Assembly: GCA_029261925.1 (NCBI GenBank)
Contig: JAJDAJ010000015.1
Span: forward strand, 1 to 64,000
Origin: Deltaproteobacteria bacterium
Lineage (GTDB): Bacteria; Myxococcota_A; UBA9160; SZUA-336
Direction of reading: 5' to 3'
DNA length: 64,000 nucleotides
The notes beneath the pieces are model-generated. The model worked only from the letters and a program-made list of their open reading frames with translations. It made no database searches and was not told the DNA's origin. Each line of letters starts with the position of its first letter. Within the stretch, counting starts at the first letter, position 1. Below, piece after piece: positions 23,043 to 45,274 of the stretch. The translations under genes and the position numbers were made by a program.

Positions 23043-24044
23043 ATGCAGCTGACCCGGATTCCAGCCCTCTGGCCCGCGCTTGCGGCGCTCCTGCTGGCGA
23101 GCGTGCTCGCGATCTGGTCTCACGGCGTTTCCCGGACGACCCGGCTCTCCAACCTGGACCTCGAGTCGACCGGCATCGCCGAGACCTATCTGATGACCGA
23201 CAAGTCGGAGCCCGGCCGCGGCTACATCGTGGGCAGGCGCGCCTCGACGGTGCGTCGCTCGGACTCGGCGCAGCAGGGGGACAGGTGGCGCCTCGACCGG
23301 ATCCCGGGTGCGTCCGGCGATACGTGGATCGCGCAGTCGAAGCGCAAGGGCAAGGGCACCGTGTTCTACGTGCCTTACCCCGACGTTCCCGATCCCGTGT
23401 ACCCGTACTACTACCGTTTCGTTCGCGAGCTCAGGCGCGAGCTCGAGCTCCCGCAGGTGAGCTGGACGAGTCTGTTCGTGAACCGCGTGTACCAGGGTCT
23501 CTACCTGCGCGTATCCCTCCCCTTCGACCCCCGGAAGAAGGACGGTGGCAGCGGGATACTGCGCGAGATCCTCGCGGTCGAGGGCGACCGTCTGATGGGC
23601 ATCGACTCGCGCTTCGACGACGCACCCGGCGTCTACGTCGACTCGATCGCGAGCGGAGTGTTTCCCCGGCTACGGGAGCCCGCACCGGCGCTGGCCTGGC
23701 TGGCCCGTCGCGCACCCACGGCCGAGACCACGCTGTTGATCCAGAACGTGGAGCCCTGGAGCGTGAGCCTGCTGCCCCTACCTGTGTCGCTGCCGGCGCT
23801 CTTCAGGGCGCGCTACGGGCGCGCTCCCGCGAGCTTTCACGACGCGCGCTACGCGCGCTGGGTGAACGCCGGATGGCGCGAGGGCGAGGAGCTCGAGCCC
23901 TTCGATGCAGCCGAGCGCGAGGCCCTGGAAGCCGGGCTGGAAGCCTATGCGTCCAGGCTCCGGGCCGGACTGAGGGCACACGTCACGCTCCACCAGAGCG
24001 GGGATCTGCTCGCCAGCCTGGATCGACGCCTGGGGGAGCTCTGA
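23043..24044 (+). CDS. Membrane-anchored CotH-like protein lacking kinase core
   Basis: A single N-terminal membrane helix (PALWPALAALLLASVLAIW) precedes a 310-residue extracytoplasmic region. The segment SLFVNRVYQGLYLRVSLP resembles the VN-x-Q/Y-G-LY strand of CotH kinases, and a similar segment occurs in the CotH gene three positions downstream. The DGDN and PWD motifs needed for catalysis are absent, so this looks like a degenerate or partner relative. It begins the four-gene unit and ends five bases before the VTC gene. I could not match the remainder to a known family. Confidence 0.55.
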   Translation: MQLTRIPALWPALAALLLASVLAIWSHGVSRTTRLSNLDLESTGIAETYLMTDKSEPGRGYIVGRRASTVRRSDSAQQGDRWRLDRIPGASGDTWIAQSKRKGKGTVFYVPYPDVPDPVYPYYYRFVRELRRELELPQVSWTSLFVNRVYQGLYLRVSLPFDPRKKDGGSGILREILAVEGDRLMGIDSRFDDAPGVYVDSIASGVFPRLREPAPALAWLARRAPTAETTLLIQNVEPWSVSLLPLPVSLPALFRARYGRAPASFHDARYARWVNAGWREGEELEPFDAAEREALEAGLEAYASRLRAGLRAHVTLHQSGDLLASLDRRLGEL

Positions 24045-24049
24045 GACCC

Positions 24050-24775
24050 ATGCGTCCGTTCAGACAGGAGCTGAAGTTCCGCGTGCATCACAGCGTGAAG
24101 ACGATGCTGCTCGAGCGCTGGCGGCGGTACCTGGTGCGCGCACCGTTCACCAACGCACACGCCGTGACACCGATCCTCAGTCAGTACTACGACTCCCCGG
24201 AGCTGGCCTTCTACTACGAGAAGCTGGACGGCATAGCGCTGCGCAACAAGGTACGCCTCCGCGTCTACAGTCAGCGCTTCACACCCGGGCAAACCGCGTT
24301 CCTCGAGATCAAGCATCGTCAGAACGATCTCGTCCGGAAGTACCGCCAGCAGATCTCCGACTTCGGCCCGGAGTGGCTCGATCCGTCGCACTGGCGCTTC
24401 GACGACCCGCAGATGGAGTCCGCCTTCCTGACCCTGCTGGAGCGACACAGGCTCCGGGCCTCCGCGCAGGTCTACTATCAGCGCGAGGCATACGAGGGTG
24501 CGGTCGAGAGCGACATCCGCGTCACGTTCGACACCTGCCTCACGGGGCTGCACCCGGGAGAGGTCGTGACGGGCACGCTCCTCCGCGACCACATGCGAAG
24601 CCTGATGCCCGACACGCTCGAGATCCTCGAGGTGAAGGCGACCCGCGGTATCCCTCGCTGGGTTCACGACGGCATCGTCGCGGCCGAACTCCAGCAGCAG
24701 ACCATTCCCAAGTACATCACCGCGGTCGAGGTCCTGGGCCTGCCCGGACTCGCGCCCGCCGGAGCCTACGCATGA
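24050..24775 (+). CDS. VTC-domain polyphosphate polymerase
   Basis: The VTC fold makes inorganic polyphosphate from ATP inside a basic tunnel barrel. The tunnel residues are all visible: ELKFRV (Glu7, Lys9), NKVRLRVY, FLEIKHR, VRKYRQQI, VYYQREAYEG, DIRVTFDT and LEVKATRGIPRWV. At 241 residues it is the VTC domain alone, without SPX or membrane segments, as is usual in bacteria. The ATG lies five bases after the CotH-like gene, and its stop overlaps the DUF4956 start. Function is by family knowledge; product has not been shown for this gene. Confidence 0.87.
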   Translation: MRPFRQELKFRVHHSVKTMLLERWRRYLVRAPFTNAHAVTPILSQYYDSPELAFYYEKLDGIALRNKVRLRVYSQRFTPGQTAFLEIKHRQNDLVRKYRQQISDFGPEWLDPSHWRFDDPQMESAFLTLLERHRLRASAQVYYQREAYEGAVESDIRVTFDTCLTGLHPGEVVTGTLLRDHMRSLMPDTLEILEVKATRGIPRWVHDGIVAAELQQQTIPKYITAVEVLGLPGLAPAGAYA

Positions 24776-25467
24776 ACGACTACTTCCTCGACAAGCTGTT
24801 CCGACCGTCCGAGACCGACATCTTCACCTTTCCCGATCTGATGCTCGCAATGACGATCTCGACGCTGCTGGCGTACGTGCTCGCCCACGCCTACCGCTAC
24901 ACGCACAGGGGTACGAGCTACTCGCAGTCGTTCCTCGTGACCCTGTTCATCATGGCAGTGGCGACCAGCGTCGTGATGATGATCATCGGCAGCAACATCG
25001 CGCGGGCGTTCAGCCTCGTCGGCGCACTCTCGATCATTCGCTTCCGCACGGCGGTCAAGGACGCCCGCGACACCGGCTACCTCTTCGCCGCGATGATTGC
25101 CGGGATGGGCTGCGGGACACAGTTCTACCTGGCCTCGATCAGCCTGACCGCGTTCATCTCGGTTCTCGTGATCGTTCTGTACGCGACCGACTTCGGGATC
25201 AAGCAGAAGCTCGAGAGCATCCTGCGGGTGACCTACCGGGTGGGCGAAGGCACTCTCGAGCAGATCGAGCGCGAGCTCGAGGGATCGTTTCGTGAGTTCA
25301 AGCTGATCAACCGCGTGCTGGACTTCGGTGAGGACCACGAGACCAACGTCTACGTCGTCCGACCGGCCCGGAACAAGGACCCCCACGAGATCGAGAGCCG
25401 GCTCCGCGAGATCGAGGGGGTCTCCAACCTCGCGATCTACCAGAGCGACCAGCATGCCCCGTTCTGA
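24772..25467 (+). CDS. DUF4956 membrane protein
   Basis: Four transmembrane helices in the first 145 residues (LMLAMTISTLLAYVLAHAY, FLVTLFIMAVATSVVMMII, YLFAAMIAGMGCGTQFYLA, LTAFISVLVIVLY) bracket the diagnostic ALSIIRFRTAVKDARDTGYLF loop of DUF4956. A cytoplasmic ferredoxin-like domain follows. DUF4956 proteins recur beside VTC and CotH genes, and exactly that order is seen here. ATGA coupling to the VTC gene implies a membrane platform for it. The 231-residue gene overlaps the CotH start by 14 bases. Confidence 0.87.
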   Translation: MNDYFLDKLFRPSETDIFTFPDLMLAMTISTLLAYVLAHAYRYTHRGTSYSQSFLVTLFIMAVATSVVMMIIGSNIARAFSLVGALSIIRFRTAVKDARDTGYLFAAMIAGMGCGTQFYLASISLTAFISVLVIVLYATDFGIKQKLESILRVTYRVGEGTLEQIERELEGSFREFKLINRVLDFGEDHETNVYVVRPARNKDPHEIESRLREIEGVSNLAIYQSDQHAPF

Positions 25468-27985
25468 CCTGTTCTCGGACAGCTACACGGGGGAGCCGCG
25501 CCGTCGCGGGCCTCTGGCCAGCATCTCCCTCGTGATCGCCCTGATCGGGTTCGGTATCGGCCTCTTCTTCGTCGGCGAGTACTTCCAGCGCTACGCGACG
25601 TACCGACAGGAGCGCGCCTCGGACCCGGGCCTGCCGCCCGTATCGCCGCTGGAGCCGGTGCGAAACATCGCGCTCAACACGCTCTACGAGCTGCCCCGCC
25701 CGATCGGCAACCAGGCGCTGCTCGAAAGCGGACTGCGTGTCTACGATCTGCAGATCGCCACGAAGCATCTGGCGACGATCCAGCAGACGGCCGAGCGGGT
25801 GACCGCGAGGACCGTGGCGGTCGGAGTCCCCAGGGAGTACGTGCCGGCCCGTTTCCGCTCCGGGAACGAGAGCTGGCCGGTGCAGGTGAAGCTGCGCGGG
25901 CTGATGAGCCTGCACTACCTGAAGATGCGGCCCTCGCTCAGGGTCAAGTTCCCGCGGGATCGTCTCTTCGAGGGCAAGCGGCAGATCAACCTGTCGGACC
26001 CCTACGACAAGGGCCTGACCATCGACGCGACCACCAACCGGGAGCTGGAGCGGTACGGCATCCTGACCTGGGACAGCCGCTTCGTGATCGTTCGCGTCAA
26101 CGACGAGCTGCAGGGACTCTTCCAGGAGATCGAGCAGTTCGGCCGCAGCATGGCGGATCGGACCGGCCGGCCGGAGGGCTTCATCTTCTCGGGCGACGGC
26201 CAGCTCTTCGGCAGCGAGGGGCCGGGATACGACAAGGCGCGCGGAGCCATCGAGCGCGTCATGGCCTGTCGCCAGGGTGGAGAGCCGGGCGCCGACGGCT
26301 GTGGCTGGGACTTCTTCAGCAGCTACTTCGACGTGGATCGCTGGGCCTGGGCGGGGGCGATGATCGCGCTGCTGCACTCGGCGCACGCCTGGGATGGCGA
26401 CAACCTGCGTCTGTTCTGGGATCCGGCGCGCGGAAAGTTCGAGCCGGTGCCGTGGGACTACTTCTACTACCCACTCGACCCCGGAAGCGCGGACGGCGAG
26501 CCCCGACTCGGCGGCGATTACGCGGCTGCCTTCTACGGCATCGACCGGTACCGGCAGGAGCGGGATTCGCGCCTCTGGATCCTGCTGAACGAGCGCGTGG
26601 ACCCGATGATCGAGCGGGCGAGGAGCCACTTCGAAGAGCTGGCCCCCGCCCTGATCGGGGACGTGCGTCATCCATCGTTCGAGCTCGACCGCGAGCGCCA
26701 GAGACAGTTCGAGACGACGCTGGACGGGAACCGGCGCCAGCTCCGCGCGCTGCTCGAGCGCGATGATCTGCGCGCGCGCACCTGGCGCACCAGCGCCGGG
26801 CTCGTCGTCCAGATCGAGAACCACGCCAAGGCCTTCGCCGAGGTCACGGGTCTCGTCGCGAGCAGCGCGCGGGGTCGGGTGAGCGTGCCGATCGACCCGT
26901 TGATCGTCGATGGCACCTGGGGAGGCGCACCGGGCCGCGCGACCCTCGTGATCGAGCTCCCGCCCGGCCTCCGGCCGGGCGCCCTCGAGGCGACCAACGG
27001 TGTCACCGGAGCGCCGGTGGATCCAGGGGCGATACGGATCGAAGCCGGTAGCGGTCCAGCGCCCGGACTGACGGCCACACCCGCTCCCGCGCTGCAGATC
27101 GCTCTCGACAACGTCCGGGTCGATGCGGATCAGGTCACGTTCGGCCCGGGAATCGTGCATCTGGCCCGGGCCCTGGAAGTTCCCTCCAGTCACGACGTCG
27201 TGTTCGCGCCGGGCCTGGACCTGCGGATGGGCCCCGGCGCGACGCTGGGGATCTACGGCGATCTGGAGTCGGTCGGACGGGCCGACGCTCCGGTCCGGAT
27301 CTCCGGAGCGGCGAAGGCACCGTGGGGCGGAATCTTCGTACAGGGAACGCGTACCGAGCCGCGCCAGGTCCACCTCGAGCATACGCTCGTGGTCGGGGGC
27401 AGCGGCGCACAGAACGCCCGGACCTGGTTCACGGCCCCGTTCGCCGTGCACGACGGCCGGGTGCGCATCCGCGAGAGCGAGTTCCGGGATGCCGGCGCGG
27501 ACGACGGCATCAACCTGAAGTACTGCGAGGTCGAGATCGACGACAGCCGCTTCGTGCGGGCACTGGACGACGCGGTCGACTGCGACTTCTGTCGCGGAGT
27601 GCTCCGGAACAACTGGATCGAGGACGCCGGTGGTGACGGGCTCGACTTCAGCGGCTCCGACGTCGACGTCGAGGGAAACCGGATCGAGGGGTGTGGCGAC
27701 AAGGGCATGAGCGTCGGCGAGCGAACCGTGGCCAGGATCTCGGGCAACCGGATCCGCGGCTGCCGCACCGGAATCGCCGTCAAGGATCTCTCGAACGCGA
27801 CGATCCAGGACACACGCCTCGAGGACCTGGAGGTCGGCCTCGCCCTGTACGTGAAGAAGCCCACCTTCGGTCCCAGCCACGCCCGCCTCGAGCGGGTGGA
27901 GATGAACAACGTCGCCACGACGCTTGTCCGGGACGCCTCCTGCACTCTCGAGGGGGCCGCGCACCTGGAGCCAGGCGGGGCTTGA
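25454..27985 (+). CDS. Membrane-anchored CotH kinase fused to right-handed beta-helix
   Basis: Residues 22-42 form one membrane helix, placing the rest outside the cytoplasm. The CotH protein-kinase-like domain spans about 70-480, with VQVKLRG, the strand VRVNDELQGLF, HAWDGDNLRLFWDP (DGDN at 314-317) and PVPWDYFYY (PWD at 333-335), the conserved ATP/metal motifs of the family. From roughly 630 to 820 there are right-handed parallel beta-helix repeats (NNWIEDAGGDGLDFSGSDVDVEGNRIEG), usual in glycan-binding or -cleaving proteins. The 843-residue fusion closes the CotH-like/VTC/DUF4956 unit. CotH kinases phosphorylate proteins in spores; the target here is unknown. Confidence 0.85.
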   Translation: MPRSDLFSDSYTGEPRRRGPLASISLVIALIGFGIGLFFVGEYFQRYATYRQERASDPGLPPVSPLEPVRNIALNTLYELPRPIGNQALLESGLRVYDLQIATKHLATIQQTAERVTARTVAVGVPREYVPARFRSGNESWPVQVKLRGLMSLHYLKMRPSLRVKFPRDRLFEGKRQINLSDPYDKGLTIDATTNRELERYGILTWDSRFVIVRVNDELQGLFQEIEQFGRSMADRTGRPEGFIFSGDGQLFGSEGPGYDKARGAIERVMACRQGGEPGADGCGWDFFSSYFDVDRWAWAGAMIALLHSAHAWDGDNLRLFWDPARGKFEPVPWDYFYYPLDPGSADGEPRLGGDYAAAFYGIDRYRQERDSRLWILLNERVDPMIERARSHFEELAPALIGDVRHPSFELDRERQRQFETTLDGNRRQLRALLERDDLRARTWRTSAGLVVQIENHAKAFAEVTGLVASSARGRVSVPIDPLIVDGTWGGAPGRATLVIELPPGLRPGALEATNGVTGAPVDPGAIRIEAGSGPAPGLTATPAPALQIALDNVRVDADQVTFGPGIVHLARALEVPSSHDVVFAPGLDLRMGPGATLGIYGDLESVGRADAPVRISGAAKAPWGGIFVQGTRTEPRQVHLEHTLVVGGSGAQNARTWFTAPFAVHDGRVRIRESEFRDAGADDGINLKYCEVEIDDSRFVRALDDAVDCDFCRGVLRNNWIEDAGGDGLDFSGSDVDVEGNRIEGCGDKGMSVGERTVARISGNRIRGCRTGIAVKDLSNATIQDTRLEDLEVGLALYVKKPTFGPSHARLERVEMNNVATTLVRDASCTLEGAAHLEPGGA

Positions 27986-28016: not shown

Positions 28017-31000
28017 ATGCTCCGGAATCCCGGCACGCAGGGCCTGATCCTCCAGGCCGTACTCTGCGCCTGTCTGCTCTGCGCGGATGCGGGTGCGGAG
28101 ACGGTCAGCTTCCAGCAGGGGGTGGACGGCTACGCGGGGACGGAGGATCTCCACCTGGCGATCCCGGCGAACGACACGGGCAACGGGCACGGGGAGAGCG
28201 AGTTCCAGACCGACCCCGAGAACCCCCGCTGGGAGTGGGACGGCGAGGACACCTGGGGAGAGGGCAGCGTCGTCTTCAGCTCGGGTGCGTCCCGGGTCGG
28301 CTCGGGCGACAACGTCGGGCTGCTGCGCTTCCGTGACGTCTTCGGGGACGGCCCGGGCCAGGTCCCTCCGGGCGCGCAGATCAGCTCCGCGATGCTGGAG
28401 CTCGAGGCTGCCCACGCCCTCGAGGGAGACCCGGGGAACCTGCACCGGGTGCTGGTGGACTGGGACGAGTCGACACGCTGGAGCAGCTTCGGCCCGCTGC
28501 CAGGGCCCGGGATGGGGACCGACTACGCCGGCGACATCGAGGCCACGACCGGCACCTCGCCGCCGGGCGGGGGGCCGATCCAGCTCGACGTCACCGCGAG
28601 CCTGCAGGCCTGGTCAGACGCGCCGGAAGCGAACCGGGGATGGGCCTTCCTGCCGGTCGGAGCCCAGGACACGATCTCGATCCAGGGCTCGGATCTGGAC
28701 AGCGTGACCCGCGTGAGCGTCGACCTCGAGATCCTCACGCCCGCGCGCGGCGAGCTGGTGGTCACGCTCCGGAAGGGCAGCTACCTGGCGGTTCTGCTCG
28801 ACCGCATCGGGCGGAGCGGCTGCACCAGCAGCTCGGGCATCACGTCGGACGACCTCGACATCACGCTCGACGACGCGGCCGTGGCCGACGTTCACGACTC
28901 GGGACCCGGCAACGGTCTCACGGGCAGCTGGAGGCCCGACGCCTCCTGCGTCGATCTGCCCCTGTGCACGGACAGCGGGACCGGTGGCCTCTGCGGGGGA
29001 CCCGCCAGCGGCGCCTGGGTGCTGACGGTCACCGACGAGTGGATCGGGGGTGGCTCCGCGGCTCGGCTGGTGTCCTGGGGCCTGACGCTGGGCGACGGCA
29101 TTCATCCAGACGAGTCCTACACATCGTCGCCCCAGCTCACGATCCCCAAGCGCCACCAGGGAGCGAACGAGACCCGCGTCCACTCCAGCGAATCGCCCGT
29201 GACGCAGGATCGGCCCAGGCTGACGGTCACGTTCGAGCCCACCGTGGCGTTCTCCCCGGTCTCGCTCGAGGCGTCCCCGGCCGGCGGGACGCAGAGCGTC
29301 GAGGTCCGCATTCCGCCGGGCTCGAATGCGCTCGGCCCGGTGAGTGTGAGCGTGGCCAGCGATGCGCCGGGCGTGGCGAGCCCAGTCGGCAGCCCGCTGC
29401 TCTTCCCGCAGGGCGGGGTGACCGCGCAGCTCCTGCAGCTCGCGATCGGCTCCGCGGGCTCGGCCACGCTCACCACGCAGAACGATGCGGGCATCGACGA
29501 CGCGGCGCTTCCGGTGACCATCGCGACGGGCTCCGTGACGCTCGGTCCCGCGGCGGTGTACCTCGGCGTGGGCAATCCGGGCACCAGCATCGATGTCGCG
29601 ATCCCGCCCGGCAGCAACGCCGCCGACGACGTCAGCATCAGCCTGGCGAGCTCCGATCCCACGGTCGCGAACCCCACCGGGGCGGTCGGGGGCCTGCTCC
29701 CGCTCGTGTTCGCGGCGGGCGCGGCGAACGTGCAGCCCGTCTCGCTGGAGCTCGGGGGCGCGCCGGGGAGCGCGACGCTCGCGGCGATCGATGACGCAGG
29801 AACGCTGGGACCCGGACTCGGGCAGGTCGTCCTGAGCCCCTTGCCCCCGATCGAGTACGACGTGAACGTCGAGCCGTACGTGCAGATCGGAGATCCGGCA
29901 GCGGGCGCTCCCGGCGATCAGCTCGTGATCGCCTGGCAGACCATCACGCGTGCGGCGGGTGGCCCGAACGCCGATGCCTTCGAGCTCGAGTACCGGCAGG
30001 CGGGCGACAGCTCCTGGATTGCGGTGCCACTCGAACCGCCGATCGAGTACGGCTCCACGTCGCGCCTCAATCACTCCGGGATCCTCAGCGACCTGGCGCT
30101 CGATACGCAGTACGAGTACCGCCTCGCGCAGCTGCGAAACGGCGCCGTGCTGGCGAGTCACTCGGCGTTCGTCGATACGCGACCCGCGGCGGAGGACCTG
30201 CGCTTCACGGCGTTCGGAAACTCCGGGCAGGGCAGCCCGAACGCACATCTGATCGGGGAGCGGCTGGCGCTGCTGGATCCGGACCTGCACCTGCTGCTGG
30301 GGGACATGGTCTACAACCTGGGCGAGTACGAGCACCACAAGCCGCGCATCAACCTGGTCTATGGCGACACCATGAAGTCCCGGCCGTTCGTCGCCACCGT
30401 GGGCAACCACGAGCAGCTGACCGACGCCGGGCGACCCGTGCTCGATCACTTCTACCTGCCCCGCAACGGGCCTCCCGGCCTCGACGAGCAGCACTACTCC
30501 TTCGACCGCGGAGGGGTCCACTTCGCGAGCATCAACTCGGCGCTCGAGCCCGGCGACATCCAGGCTGCCGGGGCCTGGGGCGTGGCGGCTGTGGGCGCCT
30601 CGGGCCCGCGCAGGAAGGTGGTGTAAACCCACGAGCCACCCCTCACCCTGGATCCGTACGGGATCGACCGGCAGCAGAGCGCGGCGGTTCGCGACCACAT
30701 CCTCTCGGTTGCGGTGGAGCAGGGCGCCGACCTCTTCCTGGCCGGAGCCGTGCACTCGTACCAGCGCTACCTGCCCGTGACCTCCGTGCTCGCGCAGGAT
30801 CCCTGGGTCGACTGGAGCAGCTGTCCCGCCGGTCCGGGCACGACCCTGATCTATCCCGGAACCGGGGCCTGGACACGCCTCCCGCCGGGCCCGGTGCCGC
30901 TGTCGCTGGAAGCGCCCATGCAGATCTACGAGCCCCGGATCGGGATCGGCCTGTTCCAGGCCAGTACGGACACCCTCACTGCGACCTTCCTGGGCGCCGA

Positions 31001-31580
31001 CGGCAGCGCGATCGACTCGGTCGTCCTGCGCAAGTGCCCGACCCCACAGGACTGCCCGTGCATCGCCAGCTGCGGCGACGGCTTCGCCCAGGCCCCCGAG
31101 GAGGAGTGCGACGATGCGAACATGCTCGACGGCGACGGCTGCTCGGCAAGCTGCCGCTACGAGACCACCGTGCCCCTGTTCGGGACGGCGGCCCTCGGCG
31201 GGACCGTGCAGGTCACGCTCGGAGGCGCATCGGTGACGGTCACCACCACCCCGGGGCAGCTGCCCGCAGAGGTCGCCGCCGCGATCGCTCTGGCCGTGCG
31301 CTTCGATCCCTCGATGATCGCCCTGGGCATCGACGCGATCGCGCTGGGCAACGAGGTCCGGACGGGTGGGGCACTCGGCGGGCTGGTCATCACCGATCCC
31401 GGGCTCTCGGGCGACCTCCCGCCACGCGCGATCCCGTTGCTGTCCCTCTGGGCGCGCCTGGCGCTCGGCGTGCTGCTCGTCGCTGGCACGCTCGCCGGCG
31501 TCAGCCGGGCTCGAGCTCGAGACCGACGATCGGCAGGTAGATCGCCGGCACGTCGGGCGGGTCCTGCAGCGCACCCGTGA
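28017..31580 (+). pseudogene. Secreted metallophosphoesterase interrupted by an in-frame TAA
   Basis: One frame of 1187 codons is cut by TAA at 30624-30626 (after 869 residues). Before it come a signal peptide, a DNRLRE-type domain split by a proprotein-convertase P-like domain (residues about 240-360), Calx-like repeats, and a purple-acid-phosphatase fold with FGNSG (normally FGDSG), LLLGDMVYNL and TVGNHEQ. Immediately after the stop the same frame resumes with THEPPL and GAVHSYQRY, the missing metal-site histidines. It then gives a Myxococcus Cys-rich repeat (CGDGFAQAPEEECDDANMLD) and an IPTL-CTERM-like tail (IPLLSLWARLALGVLLVAG, then Arg cluster). A single base change from TAC would restore it. 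The 3' end overlaps the convergent gene by 80 bases. Mutation, readthrough and assembly error are all possible. Confidence 0.72.
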
Positions 31581-33150
31581 AGCGGTACACCGCCACCATG
31601 TGCGGGCGCTGCTTCGAGTAGAGCACGTCGAACACCGCCAGACGCTCGAAATCCGGGCCCGCCACGGTCTCTCGGAGCATCCGATCTACGGGCGTCTGGT
31701 CGCGCATGTCCTCCTCGATCACCAGGAAGCGGATGCCGTGGCGGCCGATGGCCTCGCGGATCTCGGCCGCCGAGCCGACCTTGGCCTCGACTCCCCAGTG
31801 CTGGTGCACCATGCGGCTCTCGAAGATCTTGGACGAGCGGTAGATCACGAGCTCCCGGTCGCGGTCGAGCGAGCGCAGGCGGAAGATCAGCGCGCCCTCG
31901 TGCTCGAGGCTGACCAGCAGCGGCGTGCCGTCGCGCTGCTCCCAGGCACGCAGCGCCACCTCGCGCAGCCCCTCGCTCCACGTCATGTGCGCGCGCGACA
32001 GTGATCCGCCGAGCAGCAGCGCGCCGAGGCCCAGCACCGCAGCCCAGCGGAGCCCTCCGTGCGCCGGTCGCAGCCGCAGGAGCTCGTCGACCCCGCGCGC
32101 GGCGAGCACCGCGAACACGGGCACCCAGAGCAGGCCGTGCCGCGGCTCCTTCATCAGCAGCGTCACGCTCACCCAGCCCACGACGAGCCAGGCGCCGATC
32201 AGCCGCCGCTCGCCCGCGGGATCGCCCTCGCCCCGCTCCCGCCACCAGGCGCGCAGTCCCACGGCCGACAGGGCGAGCACCGGCCAGCCCACGCTGCCGG
32301 GGAGATGCGCGAGGTGGAAGCCCAGGTGGCCCGCCAGGGAGAGCTGCACGCTGTCGACCTGACCGAACGCCTGTCCCAGGTTGACCGATCCCCAGCGCAG
32401 CGTGACGTAGGCCAGCGGGACCCCGGCCAGAGCGGCAGCGGCCAGCCCGACGAGCACGCGCCGGTCCAGCGCGCGGCGCCAGCCCGATAGCAACAGCGCC
32501 GCGGCGCCGATCGCGAACACGAAGACGAAGTTCTGCTTCGTGTACGGCACCAGGACCGCCAGACCCAGCGCGAGCACCAGGTCGCGCGTCGCCTCCCCGA
32601 CGATGAAGCGCCGCAGGTACACCAGGCTCCACACGCTCAGGGCGATCGCCGCCGGCTCGAGCATCACGTAGCGGCTCCACTCGACGACCAGCGGCATGCC
32701 CAGGAAGAGCAGCCCCGCCGCTGCCCCCATCAGGCGCCCGCCGAGATCACCCGCCAGCCGCACCAGGCCCAGCGCCCCCGCGAGCAGGAAGAGCGTCACG
32801 GTCACGCGCGCGACCCAGGGTGCGATGCCGAGCAGGCCGTACATCAGACCCTCGACCAGCGCGAAGAGCGGGGGGTACATCGCGGGCGCGATGGCCGGGT
32901 ACCGGGCGTAGTAGCGCTGCGCGTAGGCGAACGGATCGAGCCAGCCGCCGTCGCGCAGCAGGTCGAGGTAGAAGGCGCCGTCCATGGCGTGGCGGCTGGC
33001 ATCCCACCAGCCCGGGTCCGCGTCCCACGGCACCGAGAGGAGCACCGCAGCGCTGCCGATCAGGCACGCGCAGACCGCCGGCAGGTTCCGGGCGAGGGCG
33101 CCCCGGTCTCGCGCGGCGGGCGGAGGCTGACTGGCCGGCTGGCGATCCAC
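31501..33150 (-). CDS. Polytopic GT39/ArnT-like glycosyltransferase
   Basis: An inner-membrane protein with about ten helices in the first 400 residues and an extracytoplasmic C-terminal domain. The first loop holds DADPGWWDASRHAMDGAFY and RYPAIAPAMYPPLFAL, resembling the acidic loop and Tyr-Pro-Pro-Leu of the GT39/ArnT/PMT family, which transfers sugars from polyprenyl phosphates. The start is set at GTG 33150, with AGGGA nine bases upstream. The track ORF extends 90 codons further without domain sense. It diverges from the polysaccharide operon and overlaps the phosphoesterase gene at its 3' end. Confidence 0.75.
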   Translation of the reverse strand: MDRQPASQPPPAARDRGALARNLPAVCACLIGSAAVLLSVPWDADPGWWDASRHAMDGAFYLDLLRDGGWLDPFAYAQRYYARYPAIAPAMYPPLFALVEGLMYGLLGIAPWVARVTVTLFLLAGALGLVRLAGDLGGRLMGAAAGLLFLGMPLVVEWSRYVMLEPAAIALSVWSLVYLRRFIVGEATRDLVLALGLAVLVPYTKQNFVFVFAIGAAALLLSGWRRALDRRVLVGLAAAALAGVPLAYVTLRWGSVNLGQAFGQVDSVQLSLAGHLGFHLAHLPGSVGWPVLALSAVGLRAWWRERGEGDPAGERRLIGAWLVVGWVSVTLLMKEPRHGLLWVPVFAVLAARGVDELLRLRPAHGGLRWAAVLGLGALLLGGSLSRAHMTWSEGLREVALRAWEQRDGTPLLVSLEHEGALIFRLRSLDRDRELVIYRSSKIFESRMVHQHWGVEAKVGSAAEIREAIGRHGIRFLVIEEDMRDQTPVDRMLRETVAGPDFERLAVFDVLYSKQRPHMVAVYRFTGALQDPPDVPAIYLPIVGLELEPG

Positions 33151-33481
33151 GCTGGGCGTCCCTCGCGCAGACCCCCTGCGCCCGGATACGATACCGGTGC
33201 GTCCCGGTCGCAGACAGCGGCGGGACGGAGGCATCCTCCAGAGAATCGGTAGGCGAGTTCCGCATCTGGCAGCCCCGGGCGCGGATCGTGCCGCGCTCCG
33301 GCCCGCGCCGTGGCACGCCGATTGCTTCCTCTCCTCCGGACAGCGGTCCCATGAACTGCCCCCCAGACTCCAGCAGCGCGCCACACCCGGCGCAGTTCCC
33401 CGCGCCTCGTTGCGTGGCAAGTCATCCCTGCGGACGGCGTGAGGCCTTCCGGGCGGGGCGGATCGGCACGGGAGACCGCTG
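33151..33481. other. Divergent intergenic region of the polysaccharide locus
   Basis: The 331 bases between the GT39-like gene and the GT2-GT4 fusion contain the sigma-54 promoter listed at 33311-33326 and no recognisable gene. If the upstream GT39 start is longer (ATG at 33237), part of this would be coding. Confidence 0.5.
33311..33326 (+). promoter_or_regulatory. Sigma-54 (-24/-12) promoter
   Basis: TGGCACG-ccga-TTGCT matches the sigma-54 consensus at every conserved base, with GG and GC separated by the required ten bases. Initiation would fall near 33337, giving a leader of about 145 bases before the fusion gene at 33482. An enhancer-binding activator would be needed; none is encoded in the window. 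Confidence 0.72.
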
Positions 33482-35932
33482 ATGTCCTGGGATGTGGCCT
33501 TCGCCCTGTTCGCTCTGCCCCTGCTGGCCTCCTACGTGGGCTACCCGGCCGTCCTGTGGCTGCTGATCCGGGTCCGGCGCCTCGCGGGAGAGGACACACC
33601 CGAGCACGTAGCCGGCGGCCCGGCGACCGTCTCGGTGATCGTTGCCGCGCACAACGAGTCGCTGGTCATCGAGCAGAAGATCCGCAACTTCCTCGCCCTC
33701 GACTACCCCGCCTCGGCGCTCGACCTCACCATCGTCTCGGACGGATCCTCCGATCGAACCTGTGAGCTGGCGCGAGCGCTGGTGGCCGAGCAATCGCCCG
33801 AGGACCAGGGGCGTATCCGGATCCTCGAGCGGACAGAGCGAAGCGGAAAGACCGTGGCGATCTCCGCCGCGGTGCCCGATGCGCCGGGCGAGATCATCGT
33901 CTTCTCCGATGCGAACACCATGTTCCGGCCCGATGCCCTCGCGGCGCTGGTTGCGCCTCTCGCGAGCCCCGACGTGGGCCTGGCCTGCGGGCATCTGAGC
34001 TACGTGGTCGAGGACCGTGCGACCAGCACGGGCGAGATCTTCTACTGGCGCTACGAGAACCTGCTCAAGGCGCTCGAGGGAGCCCTGGGCGAGCTCCTCG
34101 TCGCCAACGGCAGTATCTACGCGCTGCGCAAGGAGCTCTTCGAGCCGGTTCCCGCTCCCGTCGCAGACGACATGGTCGTGCCGATTCGTATCTCGATGCG
34201 CGGCTTCGCCCGCGTGTACGTCGACGACGCGGTCGCCGAGGAACGTCTGCCGACCGAGGCGTCCGAGGAGTTCAGGGCAAAGGCCCGGATCGTCGCCCAG
34301 GGCTTCGAGGCCCTGCGAGCGCTGCGCCCCGAGCTGATGCGCTCGAGGCCTCTACTGCTGGCTCAGGTCCTGCTGCACAAGGTCATCCGGTGGTTCGCTG
34401 CACCCCTGATGATGCTGCTGCTGCTGACGTCGATGCTGGGCACGAGCCGGTTCCTCGGCTGGATGCTCGGCGCGCAGCTGGTCTTCTACGCTCTGGTCCC
34501 GCTCGCCGCATTGCTGCGCAATCGAGCCCCCAGTCTCGTGCTTCTGCCCTTCTACTTCACCATGGTCAACTTCGCGGCCTTGAAGGGCTTCTGGGACTTC
34601 CTGCGCGGCCGCTCTCATGCGACCTGGGAGAAGTCGGCGACCACGCGCGTCGCGCACGCCGACGAGGAGCTGAAGATCCTCTTCCTGTCTCACTACTTCC
34701 CGCCGGAGAGCAACGCCCCCGCCACCCGCGTGCACGAGACCTGCCGCTGCTGGGCGCAGGCCGGGCACAGGGTGCAGGTCATCACGTGTGCGCCGAACGT
34801 ACCGGACGGCAAGGTCTACGAGGGCTATCGCAACCGCTGGCTGCACCGCGAGGTGGTCGATGGCATCGAGGTCCTGCGGGTCTGGAGCATCCTGACCCCG
34901 AACGAGGGCCTGGCGCGTACCGTCATGTTCATCTCCTTCATGCTCACGGCGACGCTGCGTGCGCTCCTGGTCGAGCGTCCCGACGTGATCGTCGCCACCA
35001 GCCCCCAGTTCTTCTGCGGCTGGGCCGGGGTGCTCACGAAGTGGCTACGCCGGAGACCCCTGATCCTCGAGATTCGCGATCCGTGGCCGGAGGCCGTGGT
35101 TGCCGTCGGCGTGATCCAGAACCCGACGCTGATCAGCACGCTGGAGTGGCTCGAGAAGCGAATGTATTCCGCCGCCGATCACATCGTCACCGTAGGTGAG
35201 GGATGCGTCGAGATCATCACTGCCAAGGGCGTACCGCCCGAGAAGATCACGCTGATCACACACGGCGTGGACCGCTCACTGTTCCGGCCCCAGCCACCTG
35301 ACCAGGACCTGATTCGCCGACTGGAGCTCGAGGGGAAGTTCGTCTGCTCGTTCGTCGGGACCATCGGCCTCTCGTGTGGGCTCGATATCGTCCTGAGGGC
35401 TGCGCGGTCCCTCCAGGAGAAGGGAATCGACGACGTCGTGTTCCTGCTCGTCGGGGACGGTGCCACGCGCGACGAGCTGGAGAGCCAGGCACGGTCCCAG
35501 GGACTCGACGAGCTGGTGTTCATGGGCCGTCAGGACAAGTCGAAGATCCCGGCGATCATGTCGGTGTCCGATTGCTGCCTGGTCCACATGATCGGAGCGG
35601 ACTGGTTCCAGAAGGTCGTGCCCTCCAAGACCGCCGAGGCGATGTCGATGGCGCGGCCGATCATCATGGGCGGGGGGCCCGCTGCCGCCCGGGTGATCGA
35701 GGAGTCCGGGGGTGGGATCTCCATCGAGCGCGAGAACGACGCCGAGCTCGTCGAGGCGCTCCTGCAGCTACGCCAGGACCCGGCCCTGTGCGAGCGCCTG
35801 GGCCAGAATGGCGCCAGGTACGCCGAGATTCACCACGACCGGACCATGCTCGCGACGCGCTACCTGGAGCTGGTCCGTCGGATGTCGCCGACGACGGAGC
35901 AGAACAGCAGCCAGGATCTGGGCGTCGCCTGA
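33482..35932 (+). CDS. Fused GT2-GT4 glycosyltransferase
   Basis: Two full glycosyltransferases share one 816-residue chain. Residues 1-400 are a membrane GT2: an N-terminal helix, VSVIVAAHNES, the nucleotide site IVSDGSSDRT, FSDANTMF (DxD-like) and three C-terminal helices (VIRWFAAPLMMLLLL onward). From about 405 to the end runs a GT4 of the WbuB type: ILFLSHYFPPESNAPATRVHE, EIRDPWPEA, SFVGTIGLSCGLDIVLRA and PSKTAEAMSMARPII. Both usually occur as separate genes. It is the first gene after the sigma-54 promoter and likely assembles two linkages of the surface glycan. Confidence 0.88.
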   Translation: MSWDVAFALFALPLLASYVGYPAVLWLLIRVRRLAGEDTPEHVAGGPATVSVIVAAHNESLVIEQKIRNFLALDYPASALDLTIVSDGSSDRTCELARALVAEQSPEDQGRIRILERTERSGKTVAISAAVPDAPGEIIVFSDANTMFRPDALAALVAPLASPDVGLACGHLSYVVEDRATSTGEIFYWRYENLLKALEGALGELLVANGSIYALRKELFEPVPAPVADDMVVPIRISMRGFARVYVDDAVAEERLPTEASEEFRAKARIVAQGFEALRALRPELMRSRPLLLAQVLLHKVIRWFAAPLMMLLLLTSMLGTSRFLGWMLGAQLVFYALVPLAALLRNRAPSLVLLPFYFTMVNFAALKGFWDFLRGRSHATWEKSATTRVAHADEELKILFLSHYFPPESNAPATRVHETCRCWAQAGHRVQVITCAPNVPDGKVYEGYRNRWLHREVVDGIEVLRVWSILTPNEGLARTVMFISFMLTATLRALLVERPDVIVATSPQFFCGWAGVLTKWLRRRPLILEIRDPWPEAVVAVGVIQNPTLISTLEWLEKRMYSAADHIVTVGEGCVEIITAKGVPPEKITLITHGVDRSLFRPQPPDQDLIRRLELEGKFVCSFVGTIGLSCGLDIVLRAARSLQEKGIDDVVFLLVGDGATRDELESQARSQGLDELVFMGRQDKSKIPAIMSVSDCCLVHMIGADWFQKVVPSKTAEAMSMARPIIMGGGPAAARVIEESGGGISIERENDAELVEALLQLRQDPALCERLGQNGARYAEIHHDRTMLATRYLELVRRMSPTTEQNSSQDLGVA

Positions 35933-35952
35933 GCGGCGGCGAGAGGGACTCC

Positions 35953-37290
35953 ATGGGAATCCACACACTGCATCGGATCGCGCTCTTCGTCGCCGGGCTC
36001 TCCATCCTGAGTGGCGGAATCGCGCTGATCCCGGGCCTGGTGGGCGTCTCGAAGCCCGCGACCGCTCTCCTGGGCGTCACGACCGTGATGACCCTCGCCG
36101 TCCGGCGCGCACGCATCCGCCTCAGTGCAAAGCACCTGTGGGTGACTCTCTTCAGCGTCATGCTGCTGGCGAGCTTCGTGTACTCCCTGACGCAGGGTCT
36201 CCCGTGGCGCTTCCTCAATCTGCTCGCGCTCTCCTACTTCTCGGTCATCGCCTTCTACTTCCTCCTGTCGCTGGCGGTCGCATCACTCGAGGACGCGACT
36301 GCGCTGGTGTGGGGCGTGATCGCCGGTGGGACCATCGCCTCCGTGTCGGTGCTGCTGGGCTACGGGGCCAGCGAGTTCGGGGTGACTGGCGAGGAGCAGC
36401 GCACCGGTGGCCTGTCGGGAGACCCCAACTACTTCGCCATGGGCGCTGCCGCGAGCGCGATGATCGCGATCTATCCGCTGATCCGTTCTCGCTCGCTCGC
36501 CGTGCGGGTGGCGCTGGTCGGCGCGATCGCGATCATGATCGCGGGCTCCCTCTCCAGCCTGTCCCGCGGCGGCTTCATCGCCCTGGGCGCGGCGAGCCTC
36601 TTCCTCGTCTACCGGCTGGTGCGCTGGGGCCACCATCTGGTGCTGGTGCCGGCTCTCATGGTGGTTCTCGCATTGCCGTTCGCACTCCCCCAGGATGTCC
36701 GCGAGCGGATCCTGACGCTGACCACGACGAGCATCCAGCTCGACGGATCGGTCCAGAGCCGTCTGGCCCAGTACGACCGTGCCCTGGGGATGTTCGGCAG
36801 CAATCCCGTACTCGGTGTGGGTGCCGGTCGCAGTCACCTGTCCGAGGCATTCGGCGGGGCGATCTCGCGCACGGATCTGAGAGCCATCTCGGGCCGGACG
36901 CAGCGCCACCAGGTGATTCACAACACTTTCCTGATCGTCCTGGTGGAGACCGGCCTCCTGGGGATGATCCCCTTCGCCATGATCTACCTGCTGACCTGGG
37001 TGGAGCTCTCACGCGTCGCTCGCCTGCGTCGATCGCGCGACTATCGAGCAGACTCGAGCCTGCGCAGCCTGGTGTGGCTGGGAGGAATGCTGCAGGCCGG
37101 CTTCATCGCCTTGACGGTGGCTGGACTCTTCCTGAGCGGGGCCAGGTACAAGCCGATGTGGATGGTCTTCGGACTGTCGACCGCCCTGCTCGCGATCGCG
37201 CGGGCACGCCAGCCCAGCACCTCCACGGCCGAGACGCCCGATCCGCAACCGGTGCTCGATGCCGTGACCGTACCCCCTCTGCACGGCTAG
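35953..37290 (+). CDS. O-antigen ligase/polymerase family protein
   Basis: About eleven membrane helices and the Wzy_C/WaaL-type periplasmic loop identify the family: RTGGLSGDPNYFAMG, SSLSRGGFIALG, NPVLGVGAGRSHLSEAF and HNTFLIVLVETGLLGM, the last carrying the conserved His-Asn. Such proteins polymerise or ligate lipid-linked oligosaccharides on the outer face of the inner membrane. The ATG at 35953 follows GAGAGGGA, 20 bases after the fusion gene. Whether it is a polymerase or a ligase cannot be told by sequence; the presence of flippases in the operon favours a Wzx/Wzy route. Confidence 0.87.
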   Translation: MGIHTLHRIALFVAGLSILSGGIALIPGLVGVSKPATALLGVTTVMTLAVRRARIRLSAKHLWVTLFSVMLLASFVYSLTQGLPWRFLNLLALSYFSVIAFYFLLSLAVASLEDATALVWGVIAGGTIASVSVLLGYGASEFGVTGEEQRTGGLSGDPNYFAMGAAASAMIAIYPLIRSRSLAVRVALVGAIAIMIAGSLSSLSRGGFIALGAASLFLVYRLVRWGHHLVLVPALMVVLALPFALPQDVRERILTLTTTSIQLDGSVQSRLAQYDRALGMFGSNPVLGVGAGRSHLSEAFGGAISRTDLRAISGRTQRHQVIHNTFLIVLVETGLLGMIPFAMIYLLTWVELSRVARLRRSRDYRADSSLRSLVWLGGMLQAGFIALTVAGLFLSGARYKPMWMVFGLSTALLAIARARQPSTSTAETPDPQPVLDAVTVPPLHG

Positions 37291-37302
37291 GACGGACGCC
37301 CC

Positions 37303-38610
37303 GTGCTGCCCGGTGGGGAGGCTCGCGGTCAGCCGCGCGGGATCGCCGGCACGCTCTACGGAGGCTCCGCGACTCTTCTGATCATCCAGGGGGCCGGCGC
37401 CGCCCTCAGCTTCGGGCTCCACGCGCTGCTCGTCCGGATCTCCGGAGCCGAGCAGTACGGCCACTTCGCATACGCACTGAACTGGCTCGCCATCTTGCTG
37501 CTGCTGGGTCACCTCGGACTCAACACCGCGAGTCTGCGATTCGTGCCGGCCTACCACGCGCACAACGACTGGCCCAGGCTGCGCGGCTTCCTGCGGCTCA
37601 CGCGACGCGCGGTCTTGATGGCATCGGTCGCGGTGGGTGCGGCGACGGCGAGCTTGCTCGCTCTCGCGGCCGAGGGACTCGATCGGGATTTCGCCGGGGC
37701 ACTGTCGACGCTGGCCCTCGGTCTGGCCCCGATCGCACTGCTCACGGTCTGGGGTACGCAGCTCCGTGCGCTCCAGAGGGTCGCTGCCTCGCAGCTCCCT
37801 CTGAGCATCCTGTTCCCGCTCGCAGCAGGCGCGATCGCGCTGGGCATGAGCCGCTCCGAGACCAGAGCGGCAGATCTCGCGCTGCTCTACGTGATCTCGA
37901 TGGGGATCGCAGCGGCCGTGAGCGGCACCCTGCTGCTTCGGGCAACGCCGCTGCCTGCGCGGAGCAGCACATCGGTGTACGAGCGGGGGGAGTGGAGGCA
38001 GGTCACCAGCCGGATGCTGGGCATCGCCCTCCTCCAGGTGCTGCAGCTCCGGCTCGCGACCACGATCCTGGGCCTCGTAGCACCAGCAGAGGAGGTCGCC
38101 CGCTACGCCGTAGCACTCCGACTCTCCACACTGGTGTCCTTCGGTTTCGTCGCCGTGTCGGCCTGGGCCTCGCCCCTGATCGCACAGCGTGAGTCCGTCG
38201 GGGACCGCGAGGGCATGGCGCGCATCTCCAGGCTGGGAGCTCGCGCGACCCTCGCCTTCGCACTCGTCGTCACCGCCATCCTCGCAGTCTGGGGAGACTG
38301 GCTGCTCGCGTTGTTCGACCCTGGCTTCACCGATACCTTCGTGTCCCTGATGATCCTCGCGATTGCCGAGTGCCTGACGTGTTTCACCGGGACCGCAGCG
38401 AGCCTGCTCATCATGACCGGGCACGAGTGGGTCGCGAGGCGCATCGAGGCGGCGGTCGCCGTGGTACTCATCCTGGCCGCTGCGGTGCTGGTTCCGGCAT
38501 ACGGCATTCTGGGGGCAGCGGGCGCCACCCTGGCGACGTCGATCTTCCGCAACACCACTCTCGCGGTCCTGGTCTGGCGCAGGCTGGGCATCCGCTGCGG
38601 GCCGCTCTGA
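37303..38610 (+). CDS. Wzx-like polysaccharide flippase 1
   Basis: A MATE/MOP-superfamily exporter of 435 residues with about twelve helices. LYGGSATLLIIQGAGAALSFGLHALLVRISGAEQYGHFAYALNW is the typical N-terminal Wzx pattern, and ASLRFVPAYHAHNDW and YGILGAAGATLATSIFRN are further family segments. It flips undecaprenyl-linked repeat units across the inner membrane. The GTG start is 12 bases after the ligase/polymerase stop. A second, different flippase follows, separated by a small ORF. Confidence 0.85.
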   Translation: MLPGGEARGQPRGIAGTLYGGSATLLIIQGAGAALSFGLHALLVRISGAEQYGHFAYALNWLAILLLLGHLGLNTASLRFVPAYHAHNDWPRLRGFLRLTRRAVLMASVAVGAATASLLALAAEGLDRDFAGALSTLALGLAPIALLTVWGTQLRALQRVAASQLPLSILFPLAAGAIALGMSRSETRAADLALLYVISMGIAAAVSGTLLLRATPLPARSSTSVYERGEWRQVTSRMLGIALLQVLQLRLATTILGLVAPAEEVARYAVALRLSTLVSFGFVAVSAWASPLIAQRESVGDREGMARISRLGARATLAFALVVTAILAVWGDWLLALFDPGFTDTFVSLMILAIAECLTCFTGTAASLLIMTGHEWVARRIEAAVAVVLILAAAVLVPAYGILGAAGATLATSIFRNTTLAVLVWRRLGIRCGPL

Positions 38611-38618
38611 GCAGTCGT

Positions 38619-38768
38619 ATGAGTACGGCGATGCGCAGAGCCCCGCTGTACGGGCAGACTCCGCGACGCTCGGACAGCGGCGCAGAGCATCCGCGCCCTG
38701 CGGCGATCGACCCCGGACCCGGCGACGCACACTTGTCGCTGGCGCTGCTCTTCGACCCCGATGACTGA
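38619..38768 (+). CDS. Possible 49-residue protein between two flippases
   Basis: An ATG eight bases after flippase 1 opens a 49-residue ORF (MSTAMRRAPLYGQTP...LLFDPDD) whose TGA overlaps the next gene's start. This fills the only gap in an otherwise tightly packed operon and uses typical codons. The product is Arg/Pro-rich with an acidic hydrophobic tail and matches nothing I recognise. It may instead be leader sequence. Confidence 0.35.
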   Translation: MSTAMRRAPLYGQTPRRSDSGAEHPRPAAIDPGPGDAHLSLALLFDPDD

Positions 38769-40077
38769 GGCTCCGGGACGCGTGCATCGCCGCGGCGGGC
38801 ACGAGGTGGCGATCCTGCTCGCGACCCGCGGGTGGATGCTCCTGGCCGGGCTCCTCACGCAGGCTCTCCTCGCGCGCATCCTGGCGCCAGAGGGTAGAGG
38901 CGTCTTCGCGGCGTGTACCGTGTTTGGAACCGTCTTCGGCGTATTGTTCGCCCTGGGCAGTGACCGCGGCGCCCAGTACCAGATGATGTCGGGCAAGCAG
39001 AGCCTCAGCCGTTCGACGTCTGTAGGGCTCGTCATCAACCTGGTGGCATCCCTGGTCGCGATCATCATCGCGATCCCGCTGAGCCGGAGCGGCCTGAGCT
39101 TCTTCGACAACACGGAGCCCCGGGCGCTGGCGATCGCGCTCGTGCTGATCCCGGTGACCCTCGGCGGCACCCTGGTGGACCTGCAGCTCGCCGGAGTCCG
39201 CAGCTTCGGGCGCCTCGGGGTCGCCACCATTCTCCAGTCCGCCGTCTACCTCACGGGGCTGGTCTACCTCGTGTGGTTCCGGGAACTCGGAGTCGAGGGC
39301 GCCATCGTCGCGGTGGTCATCGCCTCGGCTCTCAGGGCGGCCTACGGAGCGTACTGCCTGTTCCGCAACGACGGGCTGCGTCTGACGCCACCGACCCGGC
39401 AGGACTTCCGCGACGTCCTGACCTACGGCATCGCCTACTACCCAGCGCGGATCGGGACCCAGATCGACCTCCAGTCGGGCAGCCTCTTCCTGGCGGCCAT
39501 CGGCACGCGTGCGGAGATCGGCTTCTTCGCGGCGGCAGCCGCACTCACGCTGAGGCTCTTCATGATCTCGGACAGCCTCGAGGTGGCGATTCTTCCCCGG
39601 ATCGCCTCTGGACCGGGCGTGCAAGCCGAGCTGGTCGGCAGGAGCCTCAGGATCTCCGGCCTCGCCACGGGGGTCGGCGCGATCGCCCTGGCCGGCCTGG
39701 CCTGGCCCATCGTCCAGCTGCTGCTGTCCGAGGCCTTCCTCCCCGCGGTACCGCTGATCTGGATCCTGGCGCCGGGAGTCGCCGTGTACGGCGCCGCCAA
39801 GCCCCTGATGTCGTACTTCCGCGGGACGGATCGCGCGGCCGTATGCTCGTGGGCGATCTGGCTCGGGCTCATCGTCAACGCGGCGGTCCTCCTCGGACTC
39901 TACCCCCGGCTCGGTGCCGCGGCGGGCGCGTGGGGAATGACGGCGGGATTCACCGTACGCAGCGCCTATCTCGCGCTGACCTACCGGCGGATTGCCGGAT
40001 GCACGTTCGCGGATACCTGGTGCCCGCAGCGCGCTGATCTCAGCTGGGTCATCGCGCAGATTCGACGGACCCGATGA
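38761..40077 (+). CDS. Wzx-like polysaccharide flippase 2
   Basis: Another MATE/MOP-superfamily membrane protein, 438 residues, about twelve helices, but divergent from flippase 1. Its opening (LLATRGWMLLAGLLTQALLARILAPEGRGVFA) and PEGRG motif are typical of oligosaccharide flippases. EAFLPAVPLIWILAPGVAVYGAAKPLMSYFRG is the characteristic late segment. Coupling to the APH-like gene is by ATGA. Two flippases in a single operon suggest two lipid-linked substrates, or one that has taken another transport job. Confidence 0.85.
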   Translation: MTEAPGRVHRRGGHEVAILLATRGWMLLAGLLTQALLARILAPEGRGVFAACTVFGTVFGVLFALGSDRGAQYQMMSGKQSLSRSTSVGLVINLVASLVAIIIAIPLSRSGLSFFDNTEPRALAIALVLIPVTLGGTLVDLQLAGVRSFGRLGVATILQSAVYLTGLVYLVWFRELGVEGAIVAVVIASALRAAYGAYCLFRNDGLRLTPPTRQDFRDVLTYGIAYYPARIGTQIDLQSGSLFLAAIGTRAEIGFFAAAAALTLRLFMISDSLEVAILPRIASGPGVQAELVGRSLRISGLATGVGAIALAGLAWPIVQLLLSEAFLPAVPLIWILAPGVAVYGAAKPLMSYFRGTDRAAVCSWAIWLGLIVNAAVLLGLYPRLGAAAGAWGMTAGFTVRSAYLALTYRRIAGCTFADTWCPQRADLSWVIAQIRRTR

Positions 40078-40850
40078 CCAGCCCCGGCTCCGAGACGACT
40101 GAGGAACATCGGATGCAGCACATCGAGTTCACGCCGACCCAGGTGATCAAGCGGCAATCGCTGGACGCCGCCGTGCGCGAACGCGAGCGCACGGAGGTCG
40201 GACGCCGGATCGGAACGGCCTCGGGGTGCTTCAGTGTTCCCAGAATCGAGGGCTTCGATCCAGCCAGCGGTACGCTCACGTTCGAGCGCGTACTGGATGC
40301 GGAGCGGATGACCGAGCTGCTGCCCACGCTCACGGCCGTGGAGACGTCGCGCATCTCGGGACGCTGCGGCGCCGCGCTCGCGGCGATTCACGATGCCGCG
40401 GAGTCGTGCCCCCGGGACGATGCGGCCGCGGGACAGGTGAGCCTCCACGGCGACTTCGCCCTCGGTAACCTCCTGTTCAGCCGAGCCCGGGACAAGCTGT
40501 TCGTCATCGACTGGAGCGGAGCGCGGTGGCTTGAAGAGGCCCGGACCGGGCACGGCCCGGCAGCCATCGATCTCTCGATCTTCCTGCTGTCCCTGTTCTA
40601 CCGTCGACCGCTGGACACAGTCCGCGTCATCGATCCCGCGCGCGTCGCTCGCGCATTCCTGGCAAGCTACAATGACGCGCGAGCCGCAGAGTACGACTTC
40701 CTGGAGCTGCGGAGATCGTTCCCCGGCATACTGCGGCGCTACGCGGCGGATCGCTGGCGGGCCCGGGGCGCTCTCCGGATGCTGGTGCGGCTCGACGCTC
40801 TGTGCCACGTCCGCCGCTTCGTACTGAACCTGCCAGAAGGCCTGGAGTGA
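40074..40850 (+). CDS. Aminoglycoside-phosphotransferase-like kinase
   Basis: The catalytic motif VSLHGDFALGNLLFSRARDKLFVIDWSGA (HGDxxxxN and the metal Asp of IDWS) places this 258-residue protein in the APH/choline-kinase/fructosamine-kinase fold. The N-lobe is short (VIKRQSLDAAVRERERTEV with a candidate Lys-Glu pair). Within a polysaccharide operon it more probably phosphorylates a sugar, lipid or small alcohol than an antibiotic. It overlaps flippase 2 and the methyltransferase (ATGA and GTGA). The substrate is unknown. Confidence 0.78.
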   Translation: MTSPGSETTEEHRMQHIEFTPTQVIKRQSLDAAVRERERTEVGRRIGTASGCFSVPRIEGFDPASGTLTFERVLDAERMTELLPTLTAVETSRISGRCGAALAAIHDAAESCPRDDAAAGQVSLHGDFALGNLLFSRARDKLFVIDWSGARWLEEARTGHGPAAIDLSIFLLSLFYRRPLDTVRVIDPARVARAFLASYNDARAAEYDFLELRRSFPGILRRYAADRWRARGALRMLVRLDALCHVRRFVLNLPEGLE

Positions 40851-41584: not shown

Positions 41585-41597
41585 GGCGAGACTCCGA

Positions 41598-42710: not shown

Positions 42711-42740
42711 GGCGACGCGAAGTGGCAGGGCTGTCCTCCC

Positions 42741-42781
42741 GGGTTTCCGGATCGTTCTCGGGGTTCCGCCGATCCGGACCC
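42741..42781. repeat. Inverted repeat in the divergent GT4 intergenic region
   Basis: CCGGATCG (42747-42754) and CGATCCGG (42770-42777) are perfect complements, extended by GGGT/ACCC with a two-base bulge. It lies 31 bases upstream of the minus-strand GT4 start, so it could be a leader hairpin or an operator shared by the divergent genes. Confidence 0.4.
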
Positions 42782-43000
42782 GGCCAGAAATCTCGCGGTG
42801 ATCTGCCCTCCGGTCAACAGGGCGGGCACCCGAGCGTGGCGTGTCGTCGCGTACGCCGCAGGTCGATGAGAGGATTGGAGAGGGTTGACCAGCGGGAGAG
42901 CCGGTGAGACCTTCCGCCGATCGACCTGCTCGAGATCTCACACGCCGGACTCACCCACGTCCGCGCCTACCTCACCTTCTTCGCGGCGCGCGGACACCGG

Positions 43001-44032: not shown

Positions 44033-44158
44033 GGTGGCATTCCCGGGGAGCTGCTCCTCCGGGCCGCGATCCGCAGTCCGCGCGTATCAGAGCGCGGAAG
44101 CCCCCGCGTGCCTGCAGGTTTCCGGAGGACGCAGCGCGGCGTCCAGCCGGCCCGGGAA

Positions 44159-45252: not shown

Positions 45253-45274
45253 GCGAGCGCGCAGAGGAGCGAGC

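Follow-up and report, generated by a model that had tools for sequence, protein, structure and literature searches.

A conserved P0001–VTC–DUF4956–CotH-beta-helix cassette and its possible link between polyphosphate chemistry and surface polysaccharide

Four adjacent genes in a 64,000-nucleotide stretch of a deltaproteobacterial contig (JAJDAJ010000015.1; hereafter the window) raise the question of what a VTC domain, a DUF4956 membrane protein and a CotH domain fused to a beta-helix may do together. An earlier note on this DNA proposed a membrane system that makes and uses polyphosphate, or that phosphorylates surface glycan or protein. The features relevant to this question are as follows.

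23043..24044, + strand: P0001 (gene 1), 333 aa, family unassigned by Pfam
24050..24775, + strand: VTC domain protein (gene 2), 241 aa, Pfam 8e-28
24772..25467, + strand: DUF4956 membrane protein (gene 3), 231 aa, Pfam 8e-15
25454..27985, + strand: CotH-beta-helix protein (gene 4), 843 aa, Pfam CotH 3e-6 and Beta_helix 2e-12; membrane helix at aa 22-40, CotH domain at ~aa 91-430, beta-helix at ~aa 591-830 (hydropathy, Pfam and profile)
26384..26386, + strand: codon of H311, at the catalytic-Asp position of canonical CotH (alignment of 38 CotH domains)
26402..26404, + strand: codon of N317, at the metal-site Asn position (CotH alignment)
26456..26458, + strand: codon of D335, the metal-site Asp in the PWD motif (CotH alignment)
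28017..31580, + strand: possible fifth gene, for a secreted metallophosphoesterase that includes a P-domain-like part; weak Pfam matches in the window copy
31501..47518, no strand assigned: polysaccharide locus with glycosyltransferases, two Wzx-like flippases, a DegT aminotransferase and a UDP-GlcNAc 2-epimerase

The four genes are tightly packed on the same strand, as the earlier note described, with a 5-bp gap between P0001 and the VTC gene, a 4-bp overlap between the VTC and DUF4956 genes and a 14-bp overlap between the DUF4956 and CotH-beta-helix genes. The assignments of a VTC protein, a DUF4956 protein and a membrane-anchored CotH-beta-helix protein were likewise borne out by Pfam and hydropathy. 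All three domains exceed their Pfam cut-offs (98.1 bits vs 23 for VTC, 55.4 vs 30.6 for DUF4956 and 27.5 vs 23.8 for CotH), as does Beta_helix, and hydropathy places one N-terminal membrane helix in each of P0001 and the CotH-beta-helix protein, several helices in the DUF4956 protein and none in the VTC protein. A scan for promoters and terminators found none and is uninformative at this GC content. The GC content is lower across the 24–44 kb stretch of the window.

Distribution and genomic neighbourhood of the cassette

The four-gene order, which the earlier note had suggested seeking in other genomes, is not unique to the window. It is complete in five further genomes, from two classes of the phylum and a Rokubacteriota-labelled MAG: one from the same family as the window genome (L010, G009), one labelled Myxococcales (L008 = DUCN01000119, also G029), the Rokubacteriota-labelled MAG (L009) and two from another class of the phylum (L095 and L101). 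A partial copy, on a sequence that begins inside DUF4956, occurs in a Planctomycetota-labelled MAG (L007); the taxonomic labels of these MAGs may stem from mis-binning. Judging by the label of L008, the phylum is probably Myxococcota. Because the gene order is conserved elsewhere, it is not a matter of chance, and P0001 lies immediately upstream of VTC in every complete locus found. Searches with the P0001 profile gave matches in 3 of the 91 class genomes, in 4 of 284 genomes sampled from the phylum and in 2 of the 52 from the other class. This patchy spread, together with the lower GC content noted above, would fit horizontal transfer.

The VTC-DUF4956 pair is much more widespread than the full cassette. 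Among the 91 class genomes, VTC is present in 34, DUF4956 in 35 and both in 33. A DUF4956 gene lies within 8 kb and on the same strand at 40 of the 46 VTC sites in the class, and both DUF4956 and CotH genes are found near 22 of the 46. Three layouts recur. One is the P0001-VTC-DUF4956-CotH-beta-helix order of the window; another is DUF4956-CotH-beta-helix-VTC, and the third is VTC-DUF4956-HlyD-like-outer-membrane-factor-like, in which the outer-membrane-factor-like identity was judged by eye, Pfam having given no match. The CotH-beta-helix fusion, which the earlier note counted among the unusual features, recurs elsewhere in the class.

The second layout includes a second locus of the window genome (L003, 5477-9506), where DUF4956, CotH-beta-helix and VTC genes lie within a polysaccharide cluster without P0001. 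The CotH domain encoded there likewise carries His in place of the catalytic Asp, and the Trp of its PWD motif is replaced by Phe. The VTC-DUF4956-HlyD-like operon was observed in L076, L077, L078, L080-L084, L086 and L087, where an outer-membrane-factor-like lipoprotein gene frequently comes next. This operon may be a sign that the VTC product is exported across the envelope. In L090 (2919-9616), VTC is located between two CotH-like genes, one of which lacks the active-site residues, so that a degenerate CotH partner is seen here as well.

Ten CotH-beta-helix loci together have 82 neighbours; 7 of these are flippase-like, and glycosyltransferases, SGNH proteins, carbamoyltransferases and GDPD enzymes also feature. 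Among the 56 neighbours of the HlyD type, neither flippases nor glycosyltransferases appear in the 25 most frequent families. No polysaccharide genes were found near the cassette in L095 and L101. The possible fifth gene contains an in-frame TGA (30624-30626) at the position of a Phe in the L009 homologue, and its reading frame goes on past the TGA. Its homologues carry Pfam Metallophos and adjoin the cassette in L009 and L095. The C-terminal end of its product resembles a sorting signal. GDPD-type phosphodiesterase genes were also seen near DUF4956-CotH-beta-helix-VTC loci in L089 (13206-16294) and L092 (10756-11757), the latter confirmed by Pfam and the L089 pair grouped with it by clustering.

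Conserved and altered residues in the four proteins

A single-sequence search of the PDB with the VTC protein was uninformative; a profile built from five homologues succeeded, matching Vtc4 structures at 3e-8. We anchored on the aligned Vtc4 chains the positions that we take to be the tunnel and metal residues of Vtc4. All ten mapped positions are kept in the window protein: K9, R69, R71, K88 and K97 align with Vtc4 K200, R264, R266, K281 and K294, and R145, R157, E194, K196 and K221 align with Vtc4 R361, R373, E426, K428 and K458. The same ten are kept in three close homologues. The claim that all tunnel residues are present is therefore upheld at the mapped positions, and the loss of VTC tunnel residues, which the earlier note had named as counting against its proposal, was not seen. 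In the alignment used, the VTC protein of the second locus (L003) has Ser at the Vtc4 K200 position. We infer that the window VTC polymerises phosphate from ATP. The genome also encodes PPK1, so VTC is not its sole polyphosphate maker.

At 241 aa the window protein consists of the VTC domain alone, with neither an SPX domain nor a membrane helix by Pfam and hydropathy. It shares the catalytic tunnel residues of yeast Vtc4 but differs from it in this respect, as Vtc4 has SPX and membrane domains of its own. DUF4956 may stand in for the membrane domain. Hydropathy indicates that the DUF4956 protein has a cytosolic C-terminal domain after its hydrophobic helices, and a homologue has been described as a 4-TM MgtC-like protein plus an ACT domain (PMC12345266). 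The DUF4956 profile gave a single chance-level match in the PDB.

The CotH domain matches the B. cereus CotH structure (5jd9) at 3e-14 by profile. CotH retains equivalents of PKA D166, N171 and D184 (review, PMC12189002). When we aligned 38 CotH domains, the position of the catalytic Asp was occupied by Asp in each of the 14 canonical proteins and by His in each of the 17 that belong to the window group or are closely related to it. As the two groups were delimited after viewing the alignment, this is a pattern rather than a test. In seven more distant or degenerate proteins the position is taken by Pro, Tyr, Ala, Ser or Asp. The equivalent of PKA D166 is thus absent from the window protein, which has H311 instead; the equivalents of N171 and D184 (N317 and D335) are kept in all 17 His-bearing proteins, and the active-site Trp is also kept in the window protein. 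Part of the CotH active site has accordingly been lost, namely the catalytic Asp, and the metal site retained. The DGDN motif, to which the earlier note had assigned the catalytic role, does not fill it. Its D314 is variable and was rejected as the catalytic Asp; D316 was rejected as well, as it directly precedes the metal-site Asn and the sister group lacks it. Because the catalytic aspartate is missing, the label "CotH kinase" is unsupported as it was given.

Invariant residues make up their highest share in the beta-helix (34 of 240 positions, compared with 34 of 340 in the CotH lobes), which argues that the beta-helix is probably a working part. A search of the PDB with its profile returned nothing up to E 0.1, and therefore no enzyme class is assignable.

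P0001 has a single N-terminal membrane helix, and its bulk is predicted to be periplasmic. Neither Pfam nor a profile search of the PDB gave a match. Comparison of its profile with canonical CotH gave a score of 30.3, above all 40 column-shuffled controls (maximum 20.9), at a match probability of 9%; this is a weak lead, far from proof of kinship. The likeness comprises one beta-hairpin and a motif after it, and a hairpin resembling that of the CotH N-lobe is possible. AlphaFold2 models were poor, with pLDDT 47 from 4 sequences and again 47 from 6. The description of gene 1 as CotH-like and as a degenerate CotH partner thus retains one marginal profile match in its favour, against the missing Pfam match and the poor models.

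Possible roles and known relatives

The grouping of CotH, VTC and DUF4956 genes has been recorded among pel-cluster accessory genes, with no mechanism given (PMC7112168), and is known as pel-accessory in streptococci, clostridia and bifidobacteria. The earlier note's statement that it knew of no defined function for the set holds for mechanism, but the core triad itself had been described. The S. intermedius mutant lacking the DUF4956 gene had more Pel and the mutant lacking the CotH gene had less; in one medium, aggregation of either mutant fell by over half, and no aggregation defect was reported for the VTC deletion (PMC12345266).

The best-supported reading, which we put forward tentatively, is one envelope module linking polyphosphate chemistry to surface polysaccharide. 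VTC would polymerise phosphate from ATP in the cytoplasm while sitting on DUF4956, which would anchor it and possibly pass polyphosphate across the inner membrane; by analogy, the HlyD-like and outer-membrane-factor-like genes of the related VTC-DUF4956 operon hint at such export. P0001 and the CotH-beta-helix protein, each held by a single helix with its bulk in the periplasm, would receive or sense the polyphosphate. With His in place of Asp, the CotH domain would be something other than a canonical protein kinase, the beta-helix would bind surface polysaccharide, and the module would phosphorylate that polysaccharide or tune its production. The adjoining secreted phosphatase, where present, could undo phosphorylation of the polymer. 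The conserved four-gene order, the joint presence of VTC and DUF4956 in 33 genomes, the intact VTC site and the N-terminal anchors speak for this module, as do the flippase, glycosyltransferase, carbamoyltransferase and SGNH neighbours, the placement of L003 in a polysaccharide cluster, the nearby phosphoesterases and the changes in Pel amount and aggregation on deletion of homologues (PMC12345266). Against it stand the missing catalytic Asp, the lack of polysaccharide genes at L095 and L101 and the S. intermedius VTC deletion. The membrane and surface-glycan system of the earlier note survives in this form, less its CotH kinase. A more specific version, in which exported polyphosphate serves as donor outside the cytoplasm and the His-type CotH transfers it, perhaps via phosphohistidine, onto polysaccharide held by the beta-helix, strikes us as improbable.

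Nearly as likely as the envelope module, and itself doubtful, is a regulatory module. Here VTC-DUF4956 would produce or sense polyphosphate or ATP within the cell, a CotH-like pseudokinase with its beta-helix would read the polymer outside, and the two would jointly set the amount of polysaccharide without transferring phosphate to it. Loss of the catalytic Asp across the whole clade agrees with this, as do the opposite Pel phenotypes of the S. intermedius deletions and the ACT-like domain in the DUF4956 homologue (PMC12345266); a pure sensor, however, would need neither the strictly kept VTC catalytic residues nor the CotH metal site, and an invariant His is not what random drift would leave. 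That the CotH domain is after all a canonical protein kinase, phosphorylating secreted or surface proteins with ATP or with polyphosphate supplied by the VTC pair, we consider unlikely: the Pfam score, the structure match and the retained Asn, Trp and Asp would suit it, but His replaces Asp throughout the clade. In addition, ATP is not expected in the periplasm. About equally unlikely is simple phosphate storage, with intracellular polyphosphate as the sole product and incidental polysaccharide neighbours. The large conserved periplasmic beta-helix and the PPK1 already in the genome argue against storage, and polysaccharide genes recur beside several such loci and are absent from the most frequent families of the HlyD type, even though the VTC site is intact, L095 and L101 sit among unrelated genes, and phosphatase and GDPD genes are found close to loci of this kind.

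The triad, still without a mechanism, turns up repeatedly next to polysaccharide genes in distant bacteria, and the window variant extends it beyond pel and adds a conserved fourth partner, P0001. H311, N317, D335 and the VTC tunnel offer precise residues for probing polyphosphate use at the cell surface.

A 2025 paper found no such arrangement outside pel (PMC12345266). The loci described here are cases of the triad outside pel, with a different order and different fusions; PelG has no match anywhere in the window genome, and the cassette is not contiguous with pel. As in the Gram-positive pel sets (cotH-PPP(VTC)-DUF4956, PMC7112168; SIR_1592-1594, PMC12345266), the same three families are adjacent and lie beside polysaccharide genes. 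The window cassette differs in its extra gene P0001 and in its CotH protein, which has a membrane anchor, a beta-helix where the S. intermedius protein has FN3, and His for the catalytic Asp. In NELoc-2 of C. perfringens (PMC2879425), a hypothetical cell-wall protein, VTC, a DUF4956-like gene and CotH are close together with a glycosyltransferase nearby, as beside the window cassette, but the VTC pair is duplicated and the membrane gene is labelled tubulin/FtsZ. With the CotH spore-coat kinase (5jd9/5jda) the window protein shares the fold by profile over the whole domain, the metal-site Asn and Asp and the Trp; it differs in its His for the catalytic Asp, its membrane anchor and its beta-helix fusion.
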